Numbered from the stretch's first letter, positions 14,792 to 52,271 are shown. The stretch: 64,000 nt of DNA from a virus (IMGVR_UViG_3300009034_000007:1-64000); one strand, 5' to 3'. Notes: generated by a model not told the origin, from the sequence alone. Program-made: numbers and translations.

Positions 14792-15160
14792 CTAGTGTCC
14801 TAGCTTTTGTTTGATATACTTGTTTGGCATATAACCTAATTCAAAGTAATCAAACTGTGCTACAAGATCAATTGCTTTAGCGTGCAACAACCTCAATATT
14901 CTATCTCTGCACTCTGAATCTCCATTTACTTGATCAATTGTTAACTTTGAATCCATCATCACAACAATATTTAACATGTTACGATTCAAACACCATGTCA
15001 AAGCCATAAGCAAAGATCGATATTCGGCCTGATTGCTTGTACCCAAGCCAAAGATATGTTGTTTATGTCCCACTAAATTTCCTCTGTCATCATACACTTT
15101 AAATGAGCCATAAGCTAATCCATCTCGCTTACCACCATCAGCTATTACTAGATGATACAT
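14792..15160 (-). CDS. Ribonuclease HI-like protein
   Basis: 122 residues with an RNase H fold pattern: Asp8 on the first strand (IADGG), Glu46 in QAEYRSLL and Asp70 in MMDSKL with the following QVNG. These are three of the four catalytic positions; the final Asp/His region is reduced to a short basic tail. It probably cleaves RNA in RNA-DNA hybrids, for example Okazaki primers. The start overlaps the methyltransferase end by 23 bases. Confidence 0.75.
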   Translation of the reverse strand: MYHLVIADGGKRDGLAYGSFKVYDDRGNLVGHKQHIFGLGTSNQAEYRSLLMALTWCLNRNMLNIVVMMDSKLTIDQVNGDSECRDRILRLLHAKAIDLVAQFDYFELGYMPNKYIKQKLGH

Positions 15161-15959
15161 CCTCTAATACCTTTCTAGCCTCATCTACATATGCCTCGTT
15201 TATATCGAAGCCCAAATAATTTCTCCCTAACTTCTTTGCCTCAACTAGCGTTGTTCCTATTCCACACATCGGGTCTAATACCAAGTCATCCTCTCGACTG
15301 TACGCTCTTATGGCCCAATTAGCTAAACCATGTGCCATAGGTGCTGGATGATCTCTTTTAGTATCCTTATTTAAAATCAAGTAATTTGGTGGAACTTTCC
15401 CATCAGGATGAGGCGTAACCATCTTCCTCTCAGGAAACTCACCATCTTCCGTTGCTTGCATCTTATTGATTGGATACTTCATTCGTTTCAAACTTGATTC
15501 AGCATAAGATGTACGTACAGCATCCCGATAAAACTGTACAAGTTTTGGGTCACGACCAAAGACGAGATTATGTTCATACGCCGCGGGCGGTCGATTTTGA
15601 AACGCCTTTGGTAGATAAGAAGTCTTAAGCCACGGAAAATCCTCAATCAGAAATAAACTTTCATCAGCCTCTAATGCTAAAATTAGTTTATAGATGACGG
15701 TCATCTTTCTACCATCTTTATAACCTGACCCCGTATTCCACCAAATAACGCCTGTATCCTTCAACACAAATGATAAAGTCATAAGCATTGATATACAAAA
15801 TTCATACCAATCTTTCGGTGATTTAAAATAATCCCAAGCCTTTCCATATTTTCTAGCGTTATAATACGGAGGCGAGGTTACAACAAGATCGACGGCTTCA
15901 ACATTAGGAAATATAGTTAGCCAATCTTCAACATAAACATTATTAAGTTTGTACGCCAT
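15138..15959 (-). CDS. DNA N4-cytosine/N6-adenine methyltransferase 1
   Basis: 273 residues from the ATG at 15959 (AAAGGA upstream); an earlier ATG lies far inside the previous gene. Motif IV TSPPYY is at 28-33 and the SAM-binding motif I DPMCGIGTT lies near the C-terminus, so the order is the permuted beta class. The SPPY form suggests N4-cytosine or N6-adenine methylation. No cognate nuclease is adjacent. It is one of four DNA methyltransferases between 15138 and 20413. Confidence 0.85.
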   Translation of the reverse strand: MAYKLNNVYVEDWLTIFPNVEAVDLVVTSPPYYNARKYGKAWDYFKSPKDWYEFCISMLMTLSFVLKDTGVIWWNTGSGYKDGRKMTVIYKLILALEADESLFLIEDFPWLKTSYLPKAFQNRPPAAYEHNLVFGRDPKLVQFYRDAVRTSYAESSLKRMKYPINKMQATEDGEFPERKMVTPHPDGKVPPNYLILNKDTKRDHPAPMAHGLANWAIRAYSREDDLVLDPMCGIGTTLVEAKKLGRNYLGFDINEAYVDEARKVLEDVSSSNS

Positions 15960-16968
15960 AGTGCTTAATCCTTTCCGTTGCGTATTCAATTTGTTCTTCT
16001 GATGCATCAAACCCCATCCAGTCTACTCCATATTTTATAGCTGATACCGCTGTTGTTCCACTACCCATAAATGGGTCTAGGACTAAACCTGGATTCAACC
16101 AAAAATCCCAATGTCCTGACGGTGTTGGATGTTCACAGTGAGAAAAACTTTTAAAGTGTGGTAACATAGGTCTAGGTTTTCCGCACACAGGACAAACAAA
16201 TCGTGGACATGCCGCTTTAATCACCATATCAGTTAAACTTACAGGATATACAGCGAAGTTCTTTCTCCCATAAGACTTCATAAACGGCTCTGCCCCTTTA
16301 GGTGGAATAATAAACCATACATTCGCTCCCATCTTCGTCCCACTTCTAGTCTTAGCAGGTATCTTAGCCTCTTTATGATTGAAATAACCATATTTATCTT
16401 TAGTCATAAGATAAAGATATTCCCAAGATGTCATATATCTGTCTAGAATGGGTGACGGAGTCGCACCACCCATTGAATCCCCATCAGGCATTTGAATACC
16501 CTTAGCCCATATAATTTTGTCTCGAATAATAAATCCTTCATCCATAGCCAGAAACATCATCATTTCTGGAATACCAATAAAACTTTTTGGTGGCACGTCA
16601 ACATCCACATCAATAAACGCGAGATCACCATCCCAATCAGCATAACCACCAAAATTCGGTCCCTTGTTACTATCTAATGTATCCCGCCTCCCACGCTGTC
16701 GCCTCTTACCTTGTGAACGGCAGTCTCCAATGTTAAACCAAAAACTCCCTGTTGGTTTCATCACCCTCTTTATTCCTCTAAAAATAGGACGAAATTTCTC
16801 TACATAATCACGCGGCGATTTCTCAAACCCAAGATCAGAAACAAAATCATAATCTCTAGCTTGCCAATATGGGGGTGATGTAACGATAACATCAACCGAA
16901 TTGTCAGCTAATTCAGCCAAGCCATCTAAGACATCTATGCGGTAAAAATTATTCCGTTCTAAAGTCAT
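15943..16968 (-). CDS. DNA N4-cytosine/N6-adenine methyltransferase 2
   Basis: 341 residues. Motif IV TSPPYW is at 30-35 and motif I DPFMGSGTT is near residue 300. Between them is a long target-recognition region with an Arg-rich KRRQRGRRD stretch and, near residue 262, CPVC plus a later Cys/His pair that may bind zinc. The gene overlaps its downstream methyltransferase partner by 17 bases, and both are similar in motif order, so they may have arisen by duplication. Start with GGGAG upstream. Confidence 0.88.
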   Translation of the reverse strand: MTLERNNFYRIDVLDGLAELADNSVDVIVTSPPYWQARDYDFVSDLGFEKSPRDYVEKFRPIFRGIKRVMKPTGSFWFNIGDCRSQGKRRQRGRRDTLDSNKGPNFGGYADWDGDLAFIDVDVDVPPKSFIGIPEMMMFLAMDEGFIIRDKIIWAKGIQMPDGDSMGGATPSPILDRYMTSWEYLYLMTKDKYGYFNHKEAKIPAKTRSGTKMGANVWFIIPPKGAEPFMKSYGRKNFAVYPVSLTDMVIKAACPRFVCPVCGKPRPMLPHFKSFSHCEHPTPSGHWDFWLNPGLVLDPFMGSGTTAVSAIKYGVDWMGFDASEEQIEYATERIKHYGVQT

Positions 16969-17338
16969 TCAACTTCTCCCTAATTTCGGCAGTTTGCTTC
17001 TTTGAAAGCTGTCGCCATGTGGGATGGGGTGCATAAATGTGTTCGAGTTTAGCATCCACTAGACCAGCGTGTGCTACTGTTCCGCAAGCTAGTATCACAT
17101 CGGGTTTGATTCTGTAATACCATCTTTTGATATGTGCTGGATCAGCAGGAAAAGTAGCATTAGCATGATTACCAGTCTGAGGACTAGCATTTATTACACA
17201 TACCTCCATATCGTCAGGAATCATTTCGGCTAAACGTCTACCAGTCTGTGAATTCCATAAATCTTTCAGCCAACGCTTCCTCTTTCTAGGTTGCCCATCC
17301 CTATACCATGCACATTGAAGCACAACCAAAAGTTTCAT
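16949..17338 (-). CDS. Uracil-DNA-glycosylase-fold-like protein
   Basis: 129 residues. The pattern of an N-terminal VVLQCAW strand, an INASP segment near residue 48, KPDVILACGTVA near residue 80, and HPTWR near 104 resembles the uracil-DNA-glycosylase superfamily, where a C-terminal HPS-type loop contacts DNA. The canonical GEAPG catalytic loop is not visible, so activity is doubtful. Context (methyltransferases, dUTPase-like, cytidine deaminase) would fit a DNA-base role. Overlaps methyltransferase 2 by 20 bases. Confidence 0.45.
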   Translation of the reverse strand: MKLLVVLQCAWYRDGQPRKRKRWLKDLWNSQTGRRLAEMIPDDMEVCVINASPQTGNHANATFPADPAHIKRWYYRIKPDVILACGTVAHAGLVDAKLEHIYAPHPTWRQLSKKQTAEIREKLNDFRTE

Positions 17339-17472
17339 TTTTCTTTTCTTCCCTTCTTACCTATAGTCCGAAGTATTGTAAAGATAGAACGTCCATCAAT
17401 CACCATTCTATCCCATGATTTTCGTTTCCTGTCACGTCGTTGCCAGCGTTTCTTGTCACGTTTTCTCGGCAT
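17335..17472 (-). CDS. Small highly basic protein, 45 aa
   Basis: A small frame between two larger genes, starting at the ATG at 17472 and ending with a stop that overlaps the next ATG (ATGA). The first 20 residues are almost half Arg or Lys (for example MPRKRDKKRWQRRD), suggesting nucleic-acid binding. It fills an otherwise empty 117-base gap and overlaps the upstream methyltransferase by 17 bases, like its neighbours. Confidence 0.6.
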   Translation of the reverse strand: MPRKRDKKRWQRRDRKRKSWDRMVIDGRSIFTILRTIGKKGRKEK

Positions 17473-18178
17473 ATAAAATTTCTACTCTCTCTACTGCTAT
17501 ATTATAAATATCTTGATCAATCTCACTCCCAATAAATAGTCGATTGGTCTTGATACAAACTGCGGCAGTTGTCCCACTACCCATAAAAGGATCAAATACT
17601 AAATCGCCTTCCTCTGTGGTAGCTAAGACAATTCTTCGTATAAGTCTTTCGGGTTTTTGCCACTTAACCTCGCTAATTCGTTCAGACGACATAGTATGAA
17701 AATTGCCGATGTCGGTCCAAACATCCGTGGGCAACTTCTTACCCGTACCCTTAACATCAAGAGCCGTTCCAGCAGTTTTCTTTGGAATTTCGACATTTGT
17801 GGGATAAAATTTATAAGACTTAGCTTTTGCATACCAAAGAACATCATCGTGTTTCCTTCCGAAAGCATTTTTAGGCCTCCCGCCCCAATCATAGGGCCAG
17901 ATTATCCAGTTAATAAATTTATCTCTACCGAACAAATGATCCATATATAATTTCAATTCGGCTACACTTCGTTGATCAGTCTGAACAAAGATACTACCAG
18001 TATCAGATAAATTGTCTCGACATAAGGGTAGCCATCGTGCAAAATCGAAATCATCATACACCATATCAGCATAAATAGTATCGGCTGATCTAAACCACCT
18101 TTCATTCATTATCTTAAGAAGATCGATACAATCAGCCCTATATAATTCTATTTCTGGTCTTACCCATACTTGAGTCAT
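17456..18178 (-). CDS. DNA methyltransferase 3 with altered motif IV
   Basis: 240 residues from the ATG at 18178 (TAATG overlap with the primase stop). The SAM motif I DPFMGSGTT near residue 200 is intact and a GKKLPTDVW segment is typical of type II/III DNA methyltransferases. The catalytic motif IV, normally DPPY, reads DMVY at 38-41. Loss of both prolines may reduce activity or alter specificity. It is downstream of an intragenic consensus promoter at 18470. Confidence 0.8.
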   Translation of the reverse strand: MTQVWVRPEIELYRADCIDLLKIMNERWFRSADTIYADMVYDDFDFARWLPLCRDNLSDTGSIFVQTDQRSVAELKLYMDHLFGRDKFINWIIWPYDWGGRPKNAFGRKHDDVLWYAKAKSYKFYPTNVEIPKKTAGTALDVKGTGKKLPTDVWTDIGNFHTMSSERISEVKWQKPERLIRRIVLATTEEGDLVFDPFMGSGTTAAVCIKTNRLFIGSEIDQDIYNIAVERVEILYAEKT

Positions 18179-19035
18179 TATACAACTATCCTTGCTTTCT
18201 CTTGAAGTAAATCCATAAACTCCTCTTTTGTCCATCCAGCCTTGAAGAAATCACTGACATCATATCCCTCGTCAAATCCTTCAAAAGTATAGCCTCGAAT
18301 TAAAAAGCCTAAAATCTTACCAATTCGCCGTAAACCCTGTCTACCTCCAGCATCATTATCAAAGACGACATACATTCGGTCCAAGTGCATAAGCTTATGC
18401 ATCCAGAGAGGGTTGAAATGTCCTGCCCCCACACTAGAGGCTATAGCTGGAATGTTATTCTGTATACACATTATAGCATCTACTGGTCCTTCTGTCAAGA
18501 CCGTCCAATTAGTATTTTTGATACCATCCAAGTTGAAGGGAAGATTACCCAACCCACGATACCAATATTTCACCCTTTTTACACCATCTACAATTTTCCT
18601 ACATTGAAAGTTAGCTAACTTCCCTTCAACAATAATCGGGATGGTATACCACTCCCCCGTATAGCCTAGTTTAAACATATCAACTGTGCTATGAGTATAA
18701 CCCCTATTAGTAATCCAGTAATCTCGATGCTGTTTACCCAATTCGTAGAAAGAATCTAGTAATTGTCTACTGATTACATGGTGACGAACAGGAGGACGAT
18801 CAATATATAATCGTCTAGCAATAGGCTGACCTAAAATTTTTCTAGCCTCACCATATGACAATTCTTTAACTTTCGTCAACCATGTAAAAGCGTCACCATA
18901 AATACCTTTTGAATTCCAATAAAAGATATTTCTTTCGATATCAATAACTAAACTATCATGTTCAATAGTTTTAAGATATCGACCAGACCCCGTAATCGTA
19001 AAGTCCTCGGCAACAAGATCAATCACATCAACCAT
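18178..19035 (-). CDS. DnaG-like primase with TOPRIM domain
   Basis: 285 residues from the ATG at 19035 (GAGGAC upstream). The TOPRIM motifs are present: LTEGPVDAI at about 180-188 and FDNDAGG at about 225-231. An upstream KLGYTGEWYTIPI stretch matches the DnaG N-terminal subdomain. The N-terminus aligns with the CHC2 zinc domain (the NIFYWNSKGIYGDAFTWL pattern) but lacks the zinc ligands. It would synthesise RNA primers with the DnaB helicase at 25140. The absence of zinc ligands is unusual. Confidence 0.85.
   Translation of the reverse strand: MVDVIDLVAEDFTITGSGRYLKTIEHDSLVIDIERNIFYWNSKGIYGDAFTWLTKVKELSYGEARKILGQPIARRLYIDRPPVRHHVISRQLLDSFYELGKQHRDYWITNRGYTHSTVDMFKLGYTGEWYTIPIIVEGKLANFQCRKIVDGVKRVKYWYRGLGNLPFNLDGIKNTNWTVLTEGPVDAIMCIQNNIPAIASSVGAGHFNPLWMHKLMHLDRMYVVFDNDAGGRQGLRRIGKILGFLIRGYTFEGFDEGYDVSDFFKAGWTKEEFMDLLQEKARIVV
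18470..18498 (-). promoter_or_regulatory. Perfect consensus promoter inside primase gene
   Basis: On the minus strand, TTGACA, a 17-base spacer and TATAAT, with TGC before the -10 (extended -10). It coincides with the codons for the LTEGPVDAIM motif, so part of the match may be constrained by the protein. It would drive methyltransferase 3 and downstream genes. Confidence 0.45.
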
Positions 19036-19318
19036 TACTGTCCTCTTTCTCAAGAATGTATTCTGCAAGTGTTATCCACATCAATAACCAGCCAGCTTTT
19101 TGACTACCGACTTCAACACGAACAGCCACACCGCTCCCTTCATGTATGACAATACCACATGCGTCCTTAGATAAACCTTTACCGAGCGCACGATAAAGTG
19201 TAACAAGTTTCTCTCGTATTTCCCACCAGCGAGGGACTGCTACCTTTTTACGGGCCTCGTATTCTTCCTTCTCTTTAAGAAGGTCTTCCTTAATGATGCC
19301 ATCCATCGCAAGTCCCAT
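19028..19318 (-). CDS. Unknown protein, 96 aa
   Basis: A charged N-terminal helix followed by an alpha/beta segment (GIVIHEGSG). I chose the ATG at 19318 because GGAG lies five bases before it; an ATG eight codons earlier lacks a ribosome site. No family recognised. Overlaps both neighbours. Confidence 0.55.
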   Translation of the reverse strand: MGLAMDGIIKEDLLKEKEEYEARKKVAVPRWWEIREKLVTLYRALGKGLSKDACGIVIHEGSGVAVRVEVGSQKAGWLLMWITLAEYILEKEDSNG

Positions 19319-19835
19319 CCTCGCTCCAATAATCCCATTCATGGTTAGCGTGACCGTTATTGTACTTCACTGGATGACAATTCTTCCTATCCTCTGCACC
19401 CTCGCCTTCTCCCTGTTCACAATGACAAAATACCGCCTCCACTGTTGGAGTTGGCGGTATTAATGTATTAGTAGGAACAACAACTGTTACTGTCGGTGTC
19501 GGCGTCGCCTCGACTGGTGGCGTGACCGTCCCTTTCGGGGTCGGACTCGGCCCTTGTTCTGTTTCCGTAGCCGTCGGTCCTTCCGTAACTGTCGGTGTTT
19601 GCGTAGGGACTTCGCCATCACATACACACTCCTTAATTTCTACTAGTAATTTAATAATTTCAAGATGGGTATGTTGTGCAATAGTATCTTTTAATGTATC
19701 ACAACTACCCGAACATAATTTATAATCAACAACGTAAGCATTTTTCTTTGTTGCTAGATTGTAACCCATACCAAACATCCCACCAGCAAAAAGTATTACA
19801 ATCACTGCTCCAGCAATTATCCTTAAAATCTTCAT
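19290..19835 (-). CDS. Membrane-anchored Pro/Thr-rich surface protein
   Basis: 181 residues. A hydrophobic N-terminal anchor (about 5-24) is followed by a cysteine-containing stalk (near 41-72), a roughly 60-residue Pro/Thr/Val-rich linker with TPTPTV-type repeats (about 76-133), and a short Cys/His-rich C-terminal knob. The protein probably sits outside the cytoplasmic membrane. Such TP-rich linkers are very common in Chloroflexota exported proteins, a hint about the host. Function unknown; it could modify superinfection or the envelope. Its linker DNA is noticeably GC-richer than its neighbours. Confidence 0.65.
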   Translation of the reverse strand: MKILRIIAGAVIVILFAGGMFGMGYNLATKKNAYVVDYKLCSGSCDTLKDTIAQHTHLEIIKLLVEIKECVCDGEVPTQTPTVTEGPTATETEQGPSPTPKGTVTPPVEATPTPTVTVVVPTNTLIPPTPTVEAVFCHCEQGEGEGAEDRKNCHPVKYNNGHANHEWDYWSEDGTCDGWHH

Positions 19836-20413
19836 TTCCTTGCCTCCAATTCTATGTCTGATTGGACTTCATTCCCCCAAGAATCCCAACCGCTTACTTT
19901 TTGTCTTGCGAATAATTCAACCCTCGGTAAATCACCAAATAGTTGCACGATTCTGTCTCTGACCTCTCCAGGTTTTTCAGAATGGCGACCTCTTGGTGTG
20001 ATAACCAAATTTCTAACGCTTCTATCAAGTCTTTCCAGTATTTTTCCTCGTGTTCCGAGGAGACAGATTTCAGGGTTTGCACGCGTATAATATCCCAGGC
20101 CCATATGAAAATCTTTATCGAGATTAACTATTGGACCTCGTGATTTAGGCCACAGCTTTACCCATGTAAAAGCTACAGTCTTATATTTGAATTTCCACGC
20201 TTTCATAACTTTCAAAGCGTCTAATAAATTTGGATACGTAGCCCACAAGAATAGCATAGCATTATCAGCCGCAATATCCTTGATGGGTAGTTTACAAATA
20301 TCCTCTACATTCATAGTAGGATATTTATGGCTGACGTGTCGATCCGACTTAGCTACATTCCAGACTGAGAAGTGCCAGGGCGGGTCTGCGTAGATGATGT
20401 TGTACATTCCCAT
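19832..20413 (-). CDS. MT-A70 family N6-adenine methyltransferase
   Basis: 193 residues with the hallmark DPPW at 10-13, directly after the first beta strand as in phage MT-A70 proteins. A later ANPEICLLGTRG segment and RGRHSEKP are also typical of the family. It is predicted to methylate adenine in DNA (or RNA) using SAM. It is the fourth methyltransferase in the cluster and shares no obvious partner nuclease. The start overlaps a zinc-ribbon gene by 61 bases. Confidence 0.9.
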   Translation of the reverse strand: MGMYNIIYADPPWHFSVWNVAKSDRHVSHKYPTMNVEDICKLPIKDIAADNAMLFLWATYPNLLDALKVMKAWKFKYKTVAFTWVKLWPKSRGPIVNLDKDFHMGLGYYTRANPEICLLGTRGKILERLDRSVRNLVITPRGRHSEKPGEVRDRIVQLFGDLPRVELFARQKVSGWDSWGNEVQSDIELEARK

Positions 20414-31055: not shown

Positions 31056-31084
31056 ATTATACCATAAAAACGAGTGTTTGTCAA
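31056..31084 (-). promoter_or_regulatory. Leftward consensus promoter for the replication operon
   Basis: Minus-strand TTGACA (31079-31084), a 17-base spacer and TATAAT (31056-31061), with TGG before the -10 (extended -10). It is back to back with the rightward promoter at 31111-31139 and shares its TTGACAAA and TATGGTATAAT parts. Confidence 0.9.
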
Positions 31085-31110
31085 TAGAGCAAGTGTTCTA
31101 AATTTGGGGC

Positions 31111-31139
31111 TTGACAAAAACTCAAAAGTATGGTATAAT
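31111..31139 (+). promoter_or_regulatory. Rightward consensus promoter
   Basis: TTGACA (31111-31116), 17-base spacer and TATAAT (31134-31139), with an extended -10 (TGG). It reads the three small genes at 31161-31774, which are therefore likely expressed early. Confidence 0.9.
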
Positions 31140-31160
31140 ATAGCAAGATTGGAGGTAGAT

Positions 31161-31352
31161 ATGACCAACCTAACATTGTTAGACGATCTTAGACGTTATC
31201 TAAAAGTCTTGGAAGATCGGCGTACGTATGATGAAGAAATTGCTGTTACATTGCACCAGCCTGACGTTGAAACTTTTCTGGCTAGAATTGATCTTTTAGA
31301 TAACATTATACCAGAAATTCGGGATATTGTCAAGAGGTATTCGGATGGCTAA
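31161..31352 (+). CDS. Small unknown protein, 63 aa
   Basis: First gene of the rightward early transcript. The ATG at 31161 has GGAGG four bases before it; an earlier in-frame start would lie upstream of the promoter. The protein is helical and charged. Function unknown. Confidence 0.65.
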   Translation: MTNLTLLDDLRRYLKVLEDRRTYDEEIAVTLHQPDVETFLARIDLLDNIIPEIRDIVKRYSDG

Positions 31353-31810: not shown

Positions 31811-31830
31811 GTTAAATAATGGAGGATTGC

Positions 31831-32499
31831 GTGAGTAAGACTCGGATGTACGGTCATAACAAGAAACAATTACGAAACCTCAAGCAGTTTGCTGATATGA
31901 CTGATGAGGAGTTTGAGGAATATTGGAATGAACAAGGGGAAGAAGTTTTTATAGATTTACAAGTTATTGATGAGGAGATTGACAAGAAATGGGTGGAGTT
32001 TGAGGAAGATTATGATCTATCTGATCTTAAGATCAATGATAGATTAGTGCTTCGGAATCTCATTCGGGCAATTATATCCCTCGAAGAGCTTGAGAATGAC
32101 TTCTATTTTTTAAGACAACAAATATCAGATGGGAACATTCTCCTTTTAGATAGGCTATCAAAGGTTATGAATAATCTCCGTAAAGATATTTCGGAGATGC
32201 AAAACGATCTGAAACTTACTAGACGAATTCGTAAGGATAGTCAAGAGGAGAATTTTGCTACCTATCTAAATAACATTCAAGAAAAAGCTAGGAAATTTTA
32301 TAAAGAAAAGATGGTGTATGTTTTCTGTCCTAAGTGCCGTATGTTGTTAGCTACAATATGGTTGCTCTACTCAGGAGATGAAACAGCCAATCTTCATTTA
32401 ACCTGTAATCGTGAGAAATGTGGTTACAGTTTCACCACTAACCTAATTAAACTTTATAGTACTGACAATAGAAATTTACAAGATGTAAAATTACCGTAG
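31831..32499 (+). CDS. Unknown protein with C-terminal zinc motif (first late gene)
   Basis: 222 residues. The GTG at 31831 is preferred over an ATG four codons earlier, because GGAGG is then five bases upstream and the -10 lies at proper distance. The N-terminal two-thirds is acidic and helical, possibly coiled coil; the C-terminal part has CPKC near residue 164 and CNREKC near residue 190, a likely zinc ribbon. Similar proteins are seen near terminases in other phages, but I do not name it. Confidence 0.6.
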   Translation: MSKTRMYGHNKKQLRNLKQFADMTDEEFEEYWNEQGEEVFIDLQVIDEEIDKKWVEFEEDYDLSDLKINDRLVLRNLIRAIISLEELENDFYFLRQQISDGNILLLDRLSKVMNNLRKDISEMQNDLKLTRRIRKDSQEENFATYLNNIQEKARKFYKEKMVYVFCPKCRMLLATIWLLYSGDETANLHLTCNREKCGYSFTTNLIKLYSTDNRNLQDVKLP

Positions 32500-32830: not shown

Positions 32831-33466
32831 ATGTCTTGGATTAAATTTGGTCGTTTAGGTACATTTAGAGTCAAAAAGGGAGGCCAAGATATATACGCCG
32901 CTTACGCGGCTTTTGATTCATTTATCGATGATGATGATACGATTATCACAGCCCATGTGCCAGAGAAGGGTGGTGCATGGATTCAAGGTGGGGCTGGATC
33001 AAACATTACAATTCAAAGTAATGAGGCTGATCTTGATGGCGCTAGTGAGAAGCACGCTTTATTAACTTCGAGTTATCATGTCCAGGCTAATGTAAAGGGA
33101 CAGAGTGCAGGGGCTTATGGTGGAATGGGTCTTCTCTTTCGAGGCGACTCCTCAGTTGGTAATGGTCTGATAGTAGCACTGTGTAAAGGGGCAAAATCTC
33201 AAGATGTACTTGTTACTAGGGTGACTAATTGGGCCAACGTAGCGGGTGGACTTGCTATGTCAGCCGTTACATTACCTGCGGCGGGTACATGGGTTAAGAT
33301 CGAAGTTATTTACACTGATACCCATATAACTGTTAAAATAGACGATGCTACTGCCATCGATAATGTACCAGAAACTACTTATGGAGGACAGACGGAAATT
33401 GGCATTGGTCATTATTTATGGGGTGATACAACTAGTATACAATGGGATGACTTACGTGCATGGTAA
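32831..33466 (+). CDS. Virion/adhesion protein with lectin-like fold
   Basis: 211 residues from the ATG at 32831. The protein is rich in beta strands and Gly, Ala and Thr. Its pattern (WIQGGAGSNITIQSNEADL, LLFRGDSSVGNGLIVALC, WVKIEVIYTDTHITVKID) resembles concanavalin-A/LamG-like domains in phage fibre proteins. It likely binds a glycan. It follows the small structural gene directly. Confidence 0.6.
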   Translation: MSWIKFGRLGTFRVKKGGQDIYAAYAAFDSFIDDDDTIITAHVPEKGGAWIQGGAGSNITIQSNEADLDGASEKHALLTSSYHVQANVKGQSAGAYGGMGLLFRGDSSVGNGLIVALCKGAKSQDVLVTRVTNWANVAGGLAMSAVTLPAAGTWVKIEVIYTDTHITVKIDDATAIDNVPETTYGGQTEIGIGHYLWGDTTSIQWDDLRAW

Positions 33467-33666
33467 TTCGCAAGGGCAAATGTAATCGGTGTGGTAAATG
33501 TTGTGATTATGGGGGTAAATGGCCGTGTGAATATTTAAGATTTGATGGGGATATTGCTATATGTAATATCTATGAAAATCGACCTAAAGTGTGTAGATTA
33601 TATCCACAAAGACTCGAAGATGTGTTTGAAGGGTGCGGATTTTATTTTGAAGAGGAGGGTATATGA
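33460..33666 (+). CDS. YkgJ-like CxxCxxCC protein, copy 1
   Basis: 68 residues with eight cysteines: CNRCGKCC at the N-terminus, then PCEYL, a middle Cys, VCRLYP and a C-terminal GCGFYF. This is the zinc/iron-chelating YkgJ family pattern. A paralogue lies at 38281-38547 with the same eight-cysteine order. The two bracket the sugar-dehydratase/FtsH block. Function unknown; it may bind a metal cluster. It overlaps the neighbouring start and stop. Confidence 0.75.
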
Positions 33667-34721
33667 GTAAGATAGCTTTGATTACTGGTATAACGGGTCA
33701 GGATGGTAGTTATTTAGCTGAGTTACTGCTTCACAAAGGATATGAAGTTCATGGCGTGATGCGTAGGTCTAGTACTTTTAGCACGGAACGTATTGAACAT
33801 ATATTTCCGAAACTAAAGTTACATTATGGTGATCTGTCAGACGGGACCAATTTAGTTAATCTATTAAATAATATTATGCCTGATGAGATTTATCATCTAG
33901 GTGCTATGTCTCATGTCAGAGCATCATTTGATATTCCTGTCTATACTGGCGAAATCACAGGTTTGGGTACGACTAGGCTTCTGGAGGCTATTAGACATAT
34001 TGGATTTCGTCCTCGTTTCTATCAAGCTTCAAGTTCGGAAATGTTTGGGGCTAGTCCTCCACCACAGGATGAAGAAACTCCATTTCGTCCTCAAAGTCCA
34101 TATGCCGTAGCAAAAGTGTATGCTTATTGGACTGCTAGAAACTATCGTGATGGCTATGGATTGTACATTACCAATGGAATATTATTCAATCATGAAAGTC
34201 CACGTAGAGGAAAAACTTTTGTAACTCGAAAGATTACAAGAGCTGTAGCACGAATTAAAGCAGGGTTTCAAAAGGATTTATACTTAGGTAATTTAGATTC
34301 TAAACGCGATTGGGGATATACTCCAGAGTATGTTGAAGCTATGTGGAAAATGGTGCAAGAAGATATTCCAGATGACTATGTACTAGGGACAGGAGAAACT
34401 CATACTGTAAGAGAGTTTGTACGAGAAGCTTTTAGCTACGCCGAATTAGATTGGAAGAAGTATGTAAAGTTTGATAAGCGATATCTGCGACCCACAGAAG
34501 TTGATGTTTTACAGGCTAATCCTACTAAGGCTAAGTATAAGTTAGGTTGGGAGCCTCAAATTAGTTTTTATGATCTTGTGAAAATTATGGTTGACGCTGA
34601 TCTACAAGCCACTGGTCTAAATCCCATAGGTAAAGGTGTGGACATTGTTGATGGGCGATTTAAATTTGGTTGGCATACATGGGATAATAGCGTGACAGCC
34701 TTATTAAGGGAGGCACGATAA
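33663..34721 (+). CDS. gmd: GDP-mannose 4,6-dehydratase
   Basis: 352 residues, the normal length of Gmd. The Rossmann NAD(P)-binding [10 protein letters not shown] is at 8-17 and the catalytic YAVAK motif near residue 150 follows SSEMFG (Ser/Glu). It makes GDP-4-keto-6-deoxymannose from GDP-mannose. With the aminotransferase at 47640 it gives a route to GDP-perosamine. GAGGAGG ribosome site. Its AT content resembles that of neighbouring genes. Confidence 0.95.
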
Positions 34722-34722
34722 T

Positions 34723-36663
34723 ATGTGTATCGTTATCTTCGGACATGTCATTTGTATAGAGTGGCCAGTTTTAATTGCTGTTATATCCTTTGTTCTAAGT
34801 GCATGGGGCTACGTAAAAATGAAGTCCCAAAAAGTATTGAATAAAGGTAGTACTATGGTTGGACGGTTGATTGACAGAATAACAGCACCACCTAAGAAAT
34901 TGATTGACAAAATTACCATGCCACTTATTAAGCTAACTGCTTTTTTCCTTTGGCAATGGGAATTCATGCGAAGGCATAAAATACTTAGATGGATATTTTT
35001 AAGTATAGCTATAATCGTAGCCCTAATTTATAAGGCGGCAGGTGGCGAGGCAGTTCTTCAAGTGGCTATGATGGTTTTGCAATTATTGTACGGTCTTGCT
35101 TTCATGTTAATGCAGTTTATTGGACTATTCTGGTTTTTGGCTAAACCGAAAACTATTGAAATTTTACCAATTGATAAAAATGTGACTACGTGGGATGACT
35201 ATTGGGGTCAACCACAAGTAGTTGAACTTATTACACAATGGGGCGAACTTATTAAAGGTCGGAAAGATTTTGATGAAATGGGAGGCGAAGCTGTAAGAGG
35301 TATTCTACTTATTGGTCCTCCAGGAACGGGGAAAACTCATCTTGCTCGATGTATGGCTGGTTCAACTGGTGTAGCATTTTATGGTATGGATGGTTCTGGT
35401 TTTAGAGCTATGTTTTGGGGTGTAGATATTCTTCGTATGATGGCCTTCGTTAATAAAGGAAGGAAATTAGCAAAAGAGTGGGGTGCTTGCTGGCTCTACA
35501 TTGATGAAGTTGACGCTTTAGGTAGTAGAGGAGCACCTGGACAAGCAGGAATGGGCATGTTTGGTGGTCGAATGATGGGACAAGGTGCATTAAATCGACT
35601 ACTAACGGAAATGGATGGTATTACCAAAATTTCTCTTTATGATGAATGTCAAAATAGAATACGTAGAAAGTTAGGTTATTCTGATATTGATCAGGGTACA
35701 GTAATGTTTGTAGCCGCCACAAATCAACCAGATTTACTTGATCCAGCTTTGCGGCGAGCGGGACGTTTCGATAAGACTATTGAAGTCGGTATGCCAGATA
35801 AAGCAAGTCGGCGTGCTGTGATTGAAGGTTATCTCGGTAAAATTCATGTAAAAGCTCAGAAGTGTCCATATTGCGATACTACAATTCTTGACAGAACTTA
35901 TCGTGATCGACGGGGAAATTGTGGAGCGTGTGGTGGTATGCTAACCGATATAGATATAGATGCTCTTGTACAAGATACCGCGGGACGTACGCCAGCCGAT
36001 ATCGAATCTGCTATTGTTTCTGATGCATGTAGATTAGCCTATTTTGATAACCGTAATACTGTCACCTTTATGGATATAGAAAACGCAATCCAGGAACAAA
36101 TGCTTGGGCTTCAAAATCCAATTTCTGATTTTGAACCTGAACAAAGACGTACAGTGGCAATACATGAAGCTGGACATGCACTTGTTCAGCACTTCTTGAT
36201 GGATGATGTTCGTTTAGTAAGAGTATCAATTATTCGTCGTGGTGATTCTTTGGGTTACTTAGACGCAAGAGCCAAAGAAGATATCTATGTTATACCTTTG
36301 GATAAACTTGTACGATCTATTAAAGTGGCTTTGGCTGGACATGTGGCTGTTGCTCTTGTGACTGGTGAAGAGTGGAGTGGTGCATTAAGTGATTTTGCTG
36401 GTATTCACAACAGGCTCATGGCGTTAGCGGCTCATGGTTATTTTGGTGTTTTTCCAATGGGGCCTGAAATTTGGAAAGACCACAAGATGAATGAAAGAAT
36501 TCAAAAGAAGGTGCGGCAATGGATTAATGAAACTTCAGAGTTATTGTATGAACACGGAGAAGCATTGGAAGCGTTAGTTAATGCTCTCTTAGAACATGAG
36601 GATATATCAGGCAAAGACGCTGTGGCTATCATTGAGGCACATGAAAAAGGCGGTGTCGAATGA
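34723..36663 (+). CDS. ftsH: FtsH-like AAA+ membrane metalloprotease
   Basis: 646 residues, the size of FtsH. Several N-terminal hydrophobic segments (about 14-30, 89-104 and 110-141) anchor it. The AAA+ module has Walker A GPPGTGKT at 198-205, Walker B WLYIDE at 257-262 and the second region of homology around 339-350. The protease motif HEAGH is at 481-485, with a conserved Asp near 566 as likely third zinc ligand. A zinc ribbon (Cys381, Cys384, Cys400, Cys403) is inserted in the AAA lid, a region without such an insert in bacterial FtsH. It degrades membrane or cytoplasmic proteins; targets here are unknown. It is translationally coupled to a thioredoxin-like protein. Confidence 0.95.
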   Translation: MCIVIFGHVICIEWPVLIAVISFVLSAWGYVKMKSQKVLNKGSTMVGRLIDRITAPPKKLIDKITMPLIKLTAFFLWQWEFMRRHKILRWIFLSIAIIVALIYKAAGGEAVLQVAMMVLQLLYGLAFMLMQFIGLFWFLAKPKTIEILPIDKNVTTWDDYWGQPQVVELITQWGELIKGRKDFDEMGGEAVRGILLIGPPGTGKTHLARCMAGSTGVAFYGMDGSGFRAMFWGVDILRMMAFVNKGRKLAKEWGACWLYIDEVDALGSRGAPGQAGMGMFGGRMMGQGALNRLLTEMDGITKISLYDECQNRIRRKLGYSDIDQGTVMFVAATNQPDLLDPALRRAGRFDKTIEVGMPDKASRRAVIEGYLGKIHVKAQKCPYCDTTILDRTYRDRRGNCGACGGMLTDIDIDALVQDTAGRTPADIESAIVSDACRLAYFDNRNTVTFMDIENAIQEQMLGLQNPISDFEPEQRRTVAIHEAGHALVQHFLMDDVRLVRVSIIRRGDSLGYLDARAKEDIYVIPLDKLVRSIKVALAGHVAVALVTGEEWSGALSDFAGIHNRLMALAAHGYFGVFPMGPEIWKDHKMNERIQKKVRQWINETSELLYEHGEALEALVNALLEHEDISGKDAVAIIEAHEKGGVE

Positions 36664-37205
36664 GAAAATTTTATTTTTTACGTATAATGTTTATTCTAGT
36701 ATGGGCTATGATTTTTTACTTTGGTTATATAATAGGTGATAAAGTCATGGATAATATAGCGGCTTCTCAGGTTCCAATGATACCACATGAATTATCTACT
36801 GGAATAAATGTTTCTGCTGTTGGTGATGTTGTAGACCCTAGTACAGTGCTTGTCTTTGAAGTTATTTTCAATACAAAGTGTAAAGGATGTGTGTCTCAAT
36901 TGACATTTATGAAAGGAATTCATAATCCACCAGAAATTTTTGTAGTAGGGGTGAACTATGGGGAGAGTGATGAAGCTGTACAAAAACTGGTAAATAAATT
37001 AGATTTAGAATATCCCATCATCACGGGAATTGAAGAAGGCACTTTGAGTGTATCAAGTATTCCATATACCACTGTTTATGTTCCAAATCTCGACACAGGA
37101 CAATGGATGGTATTTGATGAATGGCCTGGATTTACTGGAGGACTTAGTAGTAAGAGTCAAGGTGCGTTAGATCGTTTACATGCTTATTTGGAGGAGCAAA
37201 AATGA
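36660..37205 (+). CDS. Membrane-anchored thioredoxin/TlpA-like protein
   Basis: 181 residues. An N-terminal span (about 5-26) precedes a thioredoxin fold with CKGC at residues 74-77 and a cis-Pro motif SIPYTT near residue 133. It is predicted to be a membrane-tethered disulfide reductase or oxidase facing outside the membrane. The start overlaps the FtsH stop (ATGA), so the two are made together. It may reduce substrates of FtsH or assist folding of cysteine-rich neighbours; inference. Confidence 0.75.
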   Translation: MRKFYFLRIMFILVWAMIFYFGYIIGDKVMDNIAASQVPMIPHELSTGINVSAVGDVVDPSTVLVFEVIFNTKCKGCVSQLTFMKGIHNPPEIFVVGVNYGESDEAVQKLVNKLDLEYPIITGIEEGTLSVSSIPYTTVYVPNLDTGQWMVFDEWPGFTGGLSSKSQGALDRLHAYLEEQK

Positions 37206-37849
37206 AAAGATTAAAGGTTTATGTAAGAGCTGTATTGGTTTTACTTATTGCTGGTGTTGTTGGTGTAGGAATTTGGCCTCTGTCACAACCTTGGTTTAAA
37301 TCTGAGTTTCATCAAGACCTTGTAAAATGGGGTGACTCTAATTTCTACGTAGCTGAAGGTCTTGGCTGTGATTATTTTGGTGACGTTTTCCAGGATGCTG
37401 TGGAAAAAGGGGAGCCAGAATTGTGTCTTGACCCTGGATTTATTTATGCCTATGCAGGTGGTTATGATTGGGATGATCCGTTTTTTATGATGGCGTTGAA
37501 GTTTGAAAGAGATCATCCAGAATGGGACATTCTACATATTGAAAGAGAGCCATTTGATATTAGGGCTGAACCAGATGATGAGCTACATAGCGAGGACTTC
37601 CTGATTGTTGTCTTCAATGTAGAAGGGCTAAAGCGACTCGAAATCACGGAGTACATTCAGGAATGGGGAGCCAATCAAAATGATTATGTTATCCTGCTAT
37701 GGGCCGAATACTCCGCACAGAAGGGGTACTGGGTCATGAGATACTACATGGAATATTGGGTTTCTGATGGAGTGTGGTATGAAGCATTCTTGAGCACTCC
37801 TCTGAAGAGTATATTTGCAAAGTGGGTTGGAAATCCCTACGCAGACTAA
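37202..37849 (+). CDS. Signal-anchored unknown protein, 215 aa
   Basis: N-terminal hydrophobic anchor (about 8-26) followed by an acidic, aromatic-rich domain that probably lies outside the membrane. No family recognised. Coupled to the thioredoxin-like gene (ATGA) and to the next membrane gene (TAATG). Confidence 0.65.
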   Translation: MKRLKVYVRAVLVLLIAGVVGVGIWPLSQPWFKSEFHQDLVKWGDSNFYVAEGLGCDYFGDVFQDAVEKGEPELCLDPGFIYAYAGGYDWDDPFFMMALKFERDHPEWDILHIEREPFDIRAEPDDELHSEDFLIVVFNVEGLKRLEITEYIQEWGANQNDYVILLWAEYSAQKGYWVMRYYMEYWVSDGVWYEAFLSTPLKSIFAKWVGNPYAD

Positions 37850-38085
37850 TGAAAGTAGGAACAACGAATTGGTTATTTGTTATAGGATTCTTCCTGTCTT
37901 TAATAGGATTCATCCTATTGATAATGGGAATGGGTGGTATGTCGTTGCCAGTTTTGGGTACTGCTGATAACGTAGTAATTTGTGGAATTTTTGTACTGGT
38001 GTATGCTACAATGTTTGTTTGGTCAAGTAATTACGTAATAGTAATTTGCCCCAAATGCGGCTTTAAAGGAGATATAAACGGATGA
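37849..38085 (+). CDS. Small membrane protein with zinc knuckle
   Basis: 78 residues from the ATG at 37849, which overlaps the preceding stop. Two hydrophobic spans (about 8-28 and 39-60) and a cytoplasmic CPKCGFKG tail, suggesting a zinc site. Function unknown. Part of the membrane module 34723-38085. Confidence 0.6.
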   Translation: MKVGTTNWLFVIGFFLSLIGFILLIMGMGGMSLPVLGTADNVVICGIFVLVYATMFVWSSNYVIVICPKCGFKGDING

Positions 38086-38288
38086 TCAAAATTATTGATG
38101 TTAATGGAAAAGAAAGAAATATTCTTTCGTATAAGCGAATTCTTCATGCTTCGCAGAATGGTATCACTGGCGAGGCTATTGATGAAGAATACGTAGAGGT
38201 CATGATTAAAGGAAAGTCAGGACGGGAGTGGAAAGAATGGTATCCGCTCTCAGATTTTGTTGAGAAAAATCCTGGTTTAGATGTCTAA
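38082..38288 (+). CDS. Small unknown protein, 68 aa
   Basis: A beta-rich small protein without recognised domain. It overlaps the previous gene by four bases and the next by eight. Confidence 0.55.
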   Translation: MIKIIDVNGKERNILSYKRILHASQNGITGEAIDEEYVEVMIKGKSGREWKEWYPLSDFVEKNPGLDV

Positions 38289-38547
38289 ATTACGTTATAA
38301 GAGACAAGGACAATGTATTAGATGTGGCGTATGTTGTTTAACAGAAGGTAAAGATGGGGGGCCTTGTAAATATTTGAAACTGGCTGGTGGTGGTAAGCAA
38401 GCTAGTTGTTTACTTATCAATCATCCAGAACGTCCTCAAAAATGCAAAATATTCCCTCAAGCACCCCCAATATTAATAGATACCTGTGGCTATTATTTTC
38501 TTGATACGTGGGAAGAAGATAGAATAGTCAGAGTGAGGGAAGTCTAA
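38281..38547 (+). CDS. YkgJ-like CxxCxxCC protein, copy 2
   Basis: 88 residues with the same eight-cysteine order as 33460-33666: CIRCGVCC, PCKYL, a mid Cys, KCKIFP and TCGYYF. It is a paralogue of copy 1. The two bracket the gmd/FtsH/thioredoxin block. The gene precedes a large fibre-like gene, as copy 1 follows a lectin-like one. Confidence 0.75.
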   Translation: MSKLRYKRQGQCIRCGVCCLTEGKDGGPCKYLKLAGGGKQASCLLINHPERPQKCKIFPQAPPILIDTCGYYFLDTWEEDRIVRVREV

Positions 38548-49808: not shown

Positions 49809-50700
49809 AACAGTTGTTGGTATAGTGACTTTCGGTAATTTACCTTTTACTAAATTGGCTATTGAGGGAGTACAAGCTACAGTTAAAAAGCCGTATGAAA
49901 TTTTCGTGGTGGTTGGTAAGCCAGGAGATATCGAAACTGCCTCGTACTTAGCGGAAAAAGGAATCAAACATGTTGTTCATGATGAGAATTGGGGATTTCC
50001 ATATTCATTGAATGATATTTATGATTTCACATGGAAGGATAATGATAATGACTATTTGGTTATCATGGGAAATGATGTAATCCCATACCCTAAAGCCATT
50101 GATGCATTGATTGAAACAGCAGATAGTCGGGAGTTTGAATGGGTATGTGCTAGTCAATATGATGTTCGAGACTTGTTGAAAACTCATCCAGAATTTCGAC
50201 CTTATTTCAATGCTAGTTGTAACGTGACAGATTTCAGCCATAGATGTTGGGAAACATTTACAAATTGGGATAGACCCATGAATGTTATTGGGCCTGGAAT
50301 GAGTGATGTTCATAACTTGGCTTTATATAAAAGATCAGTTTTCGAGAAGGTTGGTTATATTGATGTGAATTTCTATCCAGCATATTTTTCGGATAATGAT
50401 TATTGTCGTAGAAGTGCAAATCTTGGTATATCATCGTGTACTTTAACAAATGCTATGTATTTTCACTTCTGGAGTAGAACTATTTATCAAGAAACGGGTG
50501 GTTCAAACCATGAATTTTTTAGGGCAAACGCTTCATTTTATAATATTAAGTGGGGTGGCCCATTTGGAAGTGAACGTTTTACTGTTCCGTTCAATGGTAT
50601 TGAATATCCACTTTGTCCTGGAGTTAATTTGAAACCTGAAACAGAAATTTTTGACAGGGGACGTGAAAAGGATATTATTAAATATTGGATGTATAGATAA
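49801..50700 (+). CDS. Family 2-like glycosyltransferase
   Basis: 299 residues of GT-A type. VVGIVTFGN at the N-terminus, then YLVIMGNDVIP (the acidic catalytic strand) near residue 84 and FYPAYFSDNDYCRR near residue 190 match GT2 organisation. A sugar donor is not evident. Overlaps the preceding gene by eight bases and the terminase by one. Confidence 0.8.
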   Translation: MSKTVVGIVTFGNLPFTKLAIEGVQATVKKPYEIFVVVGKPGDIETASYLAEKGIKHVVHDENWGFPYSLNDIYDFTWKDNDNDYLVIMGNDVIPYPKAIDALIETADSREFEWVCASQYDVRDLLKTHPEFRPYFNASCNVTDFSHRCWETFTNWDRPMNVIGPGMSDVHNLALYKRSVFEKVGYIDVNFYPAYFSDNDYCRRSANLGISSCTLTNAMYFHFWSRTIYQETGGSNHEFFRANASFYNIKWGGPFGSERFTVPFNGIEYPLCPGVNLKPETEIFDRGREKDIIKYWMYR

Positions 50701-52271
50701 TGCCTCCTATTGAAAAAATTACTCATGAAGATTTAATACTCTATGAAATAGTAAGACATCCAGTTCTTTTTGGTGAGTTTTTCAGAAATATTGACTTAAG
50801 ACCGCATGAGGAACCTTGGGAATTTACTATCTACCAAAAGGAATTCATATGTGATTTTGCAAATTATGTGAGTATTTGCTGTGGTCGTACCGTCGGGAAG
50901 ACGGAAGCCCTTGTAAGTGTTCTAATTTGGATTTTGGTAAATAATGTTTATAGAGGTGATTATGTAGTTTACACTGTACCCAATAAAGTCCACCTAGACC
51001 CTGTATGGGATGGCTTAGTAAAGTTCTTTCGAGGTAACTCGATCATATCTCAGTTTGTTGAGAAACGAAGTGGTATCAACTCATCTGATCATAATATTAA
51101 ATGTAACAATTATGCGTCACTTGATTGCCGAATTGCTGGCACGACTGGTACTGGAGCCTCAGTTGTAGGTATGCACACTCCTTTCGAGGTTTTGGATGAG
51201 GCGGGATTCTATCCGTGGGGGACTTGGATTGAATTACAACCTACTTTGAATACATGGGAACAGGGTTATCGACAAGTTGTATCAGGAGTTCCTACGGGTG
51301 TACGAGAGCAAAATGTACTTTACTATACAGATGAGATGGATGATGACTTTACCAAACATCGTATCTCAGCACACCAGAACCCTCGATACACTGAGGAAGA
51401 TGAGGCTAGAAACTTAGAGAAATATGGTGGTGTAGATGGACAAGACTATATCCATCACGTCTTAGGACGGCATGGAACACCTGTTTTTGCTGTATTTGAC
51501 CGAACATTAATGTCAATTGTGGAATATCCTGTATATAAAATTAAGATTGATGGTATCAAAATTACAGATGTGTCAGAAATTTATAGCAAAATCTCAAATG
51601 TTCCTCCGATTGAAAAACGGCATGATTATGTAATAATGGGAATTGACTTAGGTTACACTGACCCAACAGCCATTCATATTTTATATAATTCTGGTGGAAC
51701 TATAAAATATCATGCTCGGATTCAGCTAACAAAGGTTCCCTATCCTTTACAAAAACAAGTAATTAGTTTCATTGATGAACGATTTCAAAGACCTGACGTA
51801 ATTGGTATAGATGCTGGTGGTCCTGGTAAACCTGTTGTTCAGGATTTCTTAGAAGCTGAAGAATTTTTACATAAAGACTTCGTGAAGCGAATGATTCCTG
51901 TAGAGTTTGGTTCACAGCTAATTTTAGGACAGGATAATGATGGAAATGATATCAAGGTACGAATGAAACCATTTGCAGTTTCGTTAACTCAGGAATATGC
52001 AAACTCACATCGGATAGTGTTTTCATCCACAGATTATGAATTTATATCAGAACTAGAACGAACAACTTATACTAAGAATCCGAGTGGGGAAATTGTTTAT
52101 CGAACTCTTACGCCTAAAGGTGGACAGAGAGGTGATGATCACCATACAACTGCACTATTATGTGCAATGATAGCACAGTATCAATTGAAAGATGCTATAA
52201 CAAGACAACAGAAGAAACCGAGATTGTATACACCAACTTGGTTACAGAGGAGTAAGTGGATATATGACTGA
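50700..52271 (+). CDS. terL: Terminase large subunit
   Basis: 523 residues. ATPase domain: Walker A GRTVGKT at 62-68 and Walker B VLDE at 164-167. Nuclease domain: MGIDLGYTDP near residue 313 and IGIDAGGPG near 360, with a C-terminal DDHHTTALLCAM near 485, the RNase H-like catalytic acids. It packages DNA into proheads and cuts concatemers. No small subunit is clearly recognised nearby. Confidence 0.95.
   Translation: MPPIEKITHEDLILYEIVRHPVLFGEFFRNIDLRPHEEPWEFTIYQKEFICDFANYVSICCGRTVGKTEALVSVLIWILVNNVYRGDYVVYTVPNKVHLDPVWDGLVKFFRGNSIISQFVEKRSGINSSDHNIKCNNYASLDCRIAGTTGTGASVVGMHTPFEVLDEAGFYPWGTWIELQPTLNTWEQGYRQVVSGVPTGVREQNVLYYTDEMDDDFTKHRISAHQNPRYTEEDEARNLEKYGGVDGQDYIHHVLGRHGTPVFAVFDRTLMSIVEYPVYKIKIDGIKITDVSEIYSKISNVPPIEKRHDYVIMGIDLGYTDPTAIHILYNSGGTIKYHARIQLTKVPYPLQKQVISFIDERFQRPDVIGIDAGGPGKPVVQDFLEAEEFLHKDFVKRMIPVEFGSQLILGQDNDGNDIKVRMKPFAVSLTQEYANSHRIVFSSTDYEFISELERTTYTKNPSGEIVYRTLTPKGGQRGDDHHTTALLCAMIAQYQLKDAITRQQKKPRLYTPTWLQRSKWIYD

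Follow-up and report, generated by a model that had tools for sequence, protein, structure and literature searches.

A Divergent FtsH-like M41 Protease with a Predicted Membrane Region in Place of the Ectodomain and a Zinc-Ribbon Motif in the AAA Lid, Encoded as Accessory Cargo by an Uncultured Tailed Phage

Introduction

Phage-encoded FtsH proteases have already been described. The FtsH of the jumbo phage MIJ3 was reported in 2019 as the first of its kind, with keeping the host viable as its proposed role (PMC6892783). An FtsH-type protease is shared by the Pseudomonas jumbo phages MIJ3 and PA5oct. The PA5oct protein is an ordinary FtsH with an ectodomain (PF06480 match), about 28% identical to the protease described here; its gene sits after one annotated as an 'FtsH-interacting' membrane protein, and, according to the record, mass spectrometry of the phage detected the product. 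The surrounding PA5oct region (170493-181494, locus L003) forms a proteostasis cluster, its genes bearing the annotations ClpX, ClpS, Hsp20 and FtsH-interacting membrane protein.

In IMG/VR, 156 tblastn-confirmed relatives of the protease query were obtained from two short patterns. In four T4-like contigs (L021, L023, L075 and L082), a complete FtsH was observed in the same place, at approximately 6.5–11.1 kb of each locus, between an SbcD-like (gp47-type) and an SbcC-like (gp46-type) gene, an arrangement that a T4-like clade apparently conserves. These are complete M41 proteases in phages, as is the present one. They differ from it in being ordinary FtsHs with an ectodomain, 50–60% identical to E. 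coli FtsH, and in their conserved location in the replication module. Several further 'phage' FtsH matches were not counted, as they came from unannotated records or lay in bacterial gene neighborhoods.

An earlier note on the DNA analyzed here had regarded a phage FtsH as rarely reported, a view not supported in that form, the MIJ3 protein having been published and full-length FtsHs recurring in IMG/VR. What is new in the present protease is a different M41 branch together with a zinc ribbon. The other viral FtsHs examined closely were all ordinary, while this protein belongs to a separate, almost unstudied branch of the family.

Results

The analyzed window comprised bases 1–64000 of a 96,729-base IMG/VR virus record, the source of which is an uncultured tailed phage. 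Genes for a PolA-type polymerase, DnaB and a RecA-like protein occupy the minus strand up to approximately 30.9 kb, a plus-strand array with the portal and head genes starts at approximately 31 kb, and a GH25 endolysin is encoded in the same record past the end of the window. The portal and head genes are distant kin of those of Microcystis phage MaeS and Bacillus Slashvirus, and an alignment search with the portal yielded 39 IMG/VR contigs with portals 36–63% identical. Three 12/12 matches to TTGACA-N17-TATAAT with an extended -10 were observed in both directions at 31056-31333, between the replication and late arrays. On the minus strand at 14792-20413, motifs resembling those of DNA methyltransferases, such as VTSPPYYNARKYG, VTSPPYWQARDYD and YADPPWHF, occur in several clustered proteins. 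The following features belong to the protease gene and to the head of the plus-strand array.

31111-31139, plus strand: sigma70-type promoter with extended -10 at the head of the plus-strand gene array (12/12 match, consensus scan only)
34723-36663, plus strand: ectodomain-less FtsH-like AAA+/M41 zinc protease, 646 aa (Pfam, residue alignment, AlphaFold2 model)
34942-35139, plus strand: predicted transmembrane (TM) region replacing the FtsH_ext ectodomain (residues ~74–139; hydrophobic peaks at 87–105 and 121–139)
35863-35931, plus strand: zinc-ribbon motif C381-P-Y-C384...C400-G-A-C403 in the AAA lid (CxxC-x15-CxxC)

The protease matched the Pfam families AAA (PF00004, E=4e-26) and Peptidase_M41 (PF01434, E=7e-21), the latter above the cut-off. 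A residue-level alignment was made with E. coli FtsH and twelve other proteins; MD-2021a (from the uncounted 'phage' matches) and MaAM05 were kept as alignment rows. Conserved positions were Walker A K204, Walker B D261/E262, the pore loop F231-W-G233, sensor 1 N334, the arginine fingers R345/R348 and the zinc site H481-E482-xx-H485 (HEAGH). The claim of a complete AAA+ metalloprotease with intact Walker A, Walker B and HEAGH motifs was thus borne out, with all catalytic residues aligned and the third zinc ligand, D557, now added. The AAA module is complete, and both the HExxH motif and the distal Asp of the M41 AAA+ superfamily are present; the protease is probably active. Hydropathy analysis gave two to three hydrophobic segments where the ectodomain would be, and this region aligns with the Thermomicrobium roseum protein described below. 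The AlphaFold2 model reached a mean pLDDT of 70, with FtsH and m-AAA proteases as the nearest PDB folds. Among the PADLOC defense families, the protease matched through its AAA core only (IetA/TRIP13/mad8), and none was matched by the three proteins encoded downstream (P2–P4).

The protease is not a plain FtsH. On the NCBIfam equivalog TIGR01241, the protease scored 247.2 bits, below the cut-off of 600, compared with 349.5 bits for the T. roseum protein and 550.9 bits for PA5oct FtsH. FtsH_ext (PF06480) gave no match at E<=1 in the phage protease, while E. coli and PA5oct FtsH do match. Across the collections searched, the best match came not from another phage but from a hot-spring bacterium: a T. 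roseum megaplasmid protein (tblastn, 36% identity, 266 bits), annotated 'AAA family ATPase' (WP_012643090.1; megaplasmid NC_011961, L175:5764-7662). The ordinary FtsHs checked did not exceed 199 bits, at about 28% identity. A host ftsH that matched closely and had lost its active site was not found.

In the maximum-likelihood tree, the phage protease and the T. roseum protein formed a clade with support of 100/99, rising to 100/100 after removal of the other long branches, the exact depth being unsure on account of the long branches in the tree. Pairing of the phage protease with E. coli FtsH was rejected by the AU test (p-AU 0.0003). The phylogeny proposed earlier placed the protein in a T. 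roseum clade instead of among the ordinary FtsHs. By its sequence, the phage protease is a divergent, ectodomain-less member of an M41 subfamily set apart from plain FtsH.

The T. roseum protein resembles the phage protease in identity (36–37%), in having a TM segment instead of the ectodomain and in its active-site residues. Around Walker B and sensor 1, both proteins carry four extra residues ahead of Walker B, a lengthened loop behind it and an insertion of about 20 residues that breaks the DGF motif; in both, the C-terminal segment of M41 is shortened. It differs in being encoded by a bacterial gene and in lacking the zinc ribbon; its gene has no ResA-like neighbor, and an unrelated 206-aa TM protein stands before it. 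Bacterial FtsH (E. coli; T. thermophilus, 2dhr; T. maritima, 2ce7) shares the AAA and M41 architecture, the catalytic residues and the fold. It departs from the phage protease in that the FtsH_ext periplasmic domain is present, the DGF motif is unbroken, the C-terminal part of M41 is longer and the lid carries no zinc ribbon. Because the DGF motif, which serves inter-subunit signaling in FtsH, is split by an insertion in the subfamily, coupling between ATPase and protease may differ.

T. roseum provided the one cellular relative of the subfamily that was found. No further members were seen among the viral FtsHs examined, and an alignment search with the phage and T. roseum proteins returned no viral kin. 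When the AAA core alone was used as a sub-alignment, all that came back were ordinary FtsHs and other AAA proteins, and single-protein scans of IMG/VR with the protease, P2, P3 and the large terminase gave no matches. A search of genome contigs produced a match at one locus, where the aligned gene proved to be a Lon-type AAA protease, and it was set aside as a chance match.

The four cysteines of the zinc-ribbon motif, which the earlier note had placed near residues 381–403, were confirmed as C381, C384, C400 and C403. They fall in an insertion of about 30 residues at the start of the AAA lid. The lid stretch measures 130 aa in the phage protease and 98–99 aa in nearly all of approximately 80 other viral FtsHs, one or two rows being excepted because the lid-length marker failed. 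With the same exception, CxxC pairs were not found in the lid of these viral FtsH ORFs, and none of the other M41 proteins examined, including that of T. roseum, has the zinc ribbon. The motif is real and specific to this protease. The Pfam family Zn_Ribbon_TF was matched at E=0.0096, below the cut-off. In the structural model that the earlier note had called for, FtsH was recovered as the top fold overall, while the ribbon itself was modeled at low confidence (pLDDT about 50). Zinc binding by the C381–C403 segment would be expected from its cysteine pattern.

The genomic position of the protease was compared with that in related phages, using the genes below.

31819-32499, plus strand: zinc-finger-like gene, 226 aa, left anchor of the cargo region (conserved in relatives)
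33460-33666, plus strand: putative CxxCxxCC zinc/iron-chelating protein, upstream paralogue (Pfam PF03692)
33663-34721, plus strand: GDP-mannose 4,6-dehydratase (TIGR01472, above cut-off), next upstream of the protease with a 1-nt gap
38281-38547, plus strand: CxxCxxCC protein, downstream paralogue (39% identical to the product of 33460-33666)
50700-52271, plus strand: large terminase, right anchor of the cargo region (PHROG 675, weak; 36–61% identical in relatives)

In relatives, the zinc-finger-like gene and the large terminase are neighbors or have a few sugar-modifying genes between them; the zinc-finger-like gene lies directly 5' of the terminase in L112, L116, L117 and L133, and may encode a small terminase or a late regulator. 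In the present phage, the gap between the two is a variable region of 18.2 kb, holding the GDP-mannose dehydratase, the protease block, adhesin-like genes, an ATP-grasp protein, a DegT-type aminotransferase and a glycosyltransferase. The block formed by the dehydratase and the protease is bracketed by the two CxxCxxCC paralogues. In the related phage locus L121, a homologue of the gene at 38281 stands before the same two downstream adhesin-like genes.

An M41 domain was found in 0/42 related virus records by a search that recovers the phage protease; many of these records are fragments, and the absence carries weight only where the records are long (up to 153 kb). As far as the records extend, related phages thus do not conserve the module, an outcome that the earlier note had named as one that would refute its reading. 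The result points to accessory cargo, not to a core function, and the protease gene is regarded as such cargo. Its GC3 equals that of the phage terminase, which indicates a settled gene and not a fresh import. DNA repeats marking an insertion of the block were looked for and none were found.

Three genes follow the protease.

36660-37205, plus strand: P2, membrane-anchored ResA-like thiol-disulfide protein, predicted extracytoplasmic (weak ResA matches, N-terminal TM)
37202-37849, plus strand: P3, orphan with N-terminal TM and predicted extracytoplasmic domain (exactly two cysteines, 56 and 75)
37849-38085, plus strand: P4, small, predicted to have two or three TM segments, with CPKC at its C-terminus (hydropathy, cysteines)

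ATGA overlaps join the protease to P2 (36660-36663) and P2 to P3 (37202-37205). P3 and P4 overlap at TAATG, so that P4 probably starts at ATG 37849 and not at GTG 37822. The claimed coupling to a thioredoxin-like membrane protein with CKGC was supported as to the ATGA overlap and the ResA-like character of P2, and the two further membrane-associated proteins were recognized as P3 and P4 with predicted TM segments. The coupling is not special to the block, however, since short overlaps are common throughout the genome, with stop-start overlaps at 11/40 plus-strand junctions; by itself, it argues only faintly for a complex of the protease with P2–P4.

The N-terminus of P2 carries positive charge and leads into one TM segment, and the only two cysteines of the protein lie in CKGC (residues 74–77). 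ResA was matched at E=2.2e-4 and 21.2 bits in NCBIfam, below the curated cut-off of 170 bits. The PDB matches were weak (E 0.04) and nearly all ResA; those from plasmids by tblastn were also weak (0.9), all annotated ResA. Weak as each is, these three independent searches converge on ResA. The single-sequence fold reached a pLDDT of 44. Like ResA/TlpA-type oxidoreductases, P2 combines an N-terminal TM segment, a CxxC motif and weak profile matches; it differs from them in having CKGC, not CEPC, and in falling below the family cut-off. For P3 and P4, no family was recognized by Pfam and NCBIfam profile searches. Database matches of P2–P4 were thus weak or absent, and with no clear homologues it is gene order alone that points to a partnership with the protease.

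The positive-inside rule predicts that P2 and P3 face outward and the protease domains inward. Since the thioredoxin domain would lie outside the membrane and the catalytic part of the protease inside, P2 is unlikely to have a direct redox link to the zinc ribbon. A single redox-protease unit is not compatible with this predicted arrangement.

Discussion

The locus is best explained, with fair probability, as accessory cargo encoding a membrane-anchored, ATP-driven M41 protease with P2–P4 as its partners. The protease is presumably hexameric and zinc-dependent, and its short TM region would keep the AAA ring and the protease at the cytoplasmic side of the membrane, where the ring would draw membrane or membrane-associated proteins through its aromatic pore into the M41 chamber. 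P2–P4, being co-translated, are probable partners. P2 likely maintains thiols or disulfides outside the membrane, perhaps on the two-cysteine P3, while P3 and P4 could serve the protease as adaptors or substrates, much as HflK/HflC or YccA do host FtsH. During infection, the block would probably remove host envelope proteins or police the phage-modified envelope. A stronger form of this reading is considered unlikely: a dedicated viral machine for membrane-protein degradation, in which an ectodomain-less M41 protease acquired a zinc ribbon for docking and was joined to an extracytoplasmic thiol enzyme and membrane adaptors of its own, thereby redirecting proteolysis to selected host envelope proteins.

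Among other readings, a surface-remodeling or superinfection-exclusion cassette is a serious possibility, though short of probable. The protease with P2–P4 would remove envelope proteins such as receptors, and the sugar genes would alter glycans. The cargo region does hold a GDP-mannose dehydratase, a glycosyltransferase, a DegT-type aminotransferase and adhesin-like genes, and exclusion modules typically include small membrane partners. Relatives, however, have no M41 gene in this region although they retain sugar genes there, and no receptor or target is identifiable. Quality control of phage membrane proteins or virion parts, with the host not being the aim, seems rather unlikely: although membrane-protein quality control is the usual role of FtsH, several small membrane proteins are encoded in the genome and PA5oct FtsH was found by mass spectrometry of the phage, related phages of comparable gene content manage without the protease.

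Recent capture of an ordinary host FtsH, adding to the protease dose in infection, is quite improbable for the present protein. Other phages have captured FtsH, as in MIJ3/PA5oct and the T4-like contigs with their 50–60% identity to E. coli FtsH, but here the ectodomain is missing, the equivalog score is 247 bits against 600, identity to FtsHs is about 28%, the protein groups with that of T. roseum and GC3 is equal to that of phage core genes. A redox switch in which P2 would control the zinc ribbon is suggested by the CxxC pairs of both proteins and by their translational coupling. It was nevertheless rejected on predicted topology as highly improbable, since the CKGC of P2 is predicted outside the cell membrane and the lid is cytoplasmic; P3 is also the better placed two-cysteine client of P2.

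For the favored reading of a membrane-anchored protease with partners, the zinc ribbon of the lid is probably a docking site for a substrate or adaptor, or else a structural staple. In ClpX, a zinc-binding unit on an AAA+ unfoldase serves docking. The likeness to the phage protease would be an analogy; the zinc-binding domain is N-terminal in ClpX and the ribbon is an insertion in the lid. The locus opens the questions of how an M41 protease selects its substrates without an ectodomain and whether phages steer membrane proteolysis with adaptors of their own. The combination of a lacking ectodomain with a putative zinc-binding lid insertion makes both substrate choice and phage-own adaptors testable.

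A 66-aa phage protein with CPYC...CPKCGG, encoded at 17461-17661 of locus L090 (81461-81661 of the record), resembles the zinc-ribbon insert of the protease and is, by this resemblance, a possible source of it.
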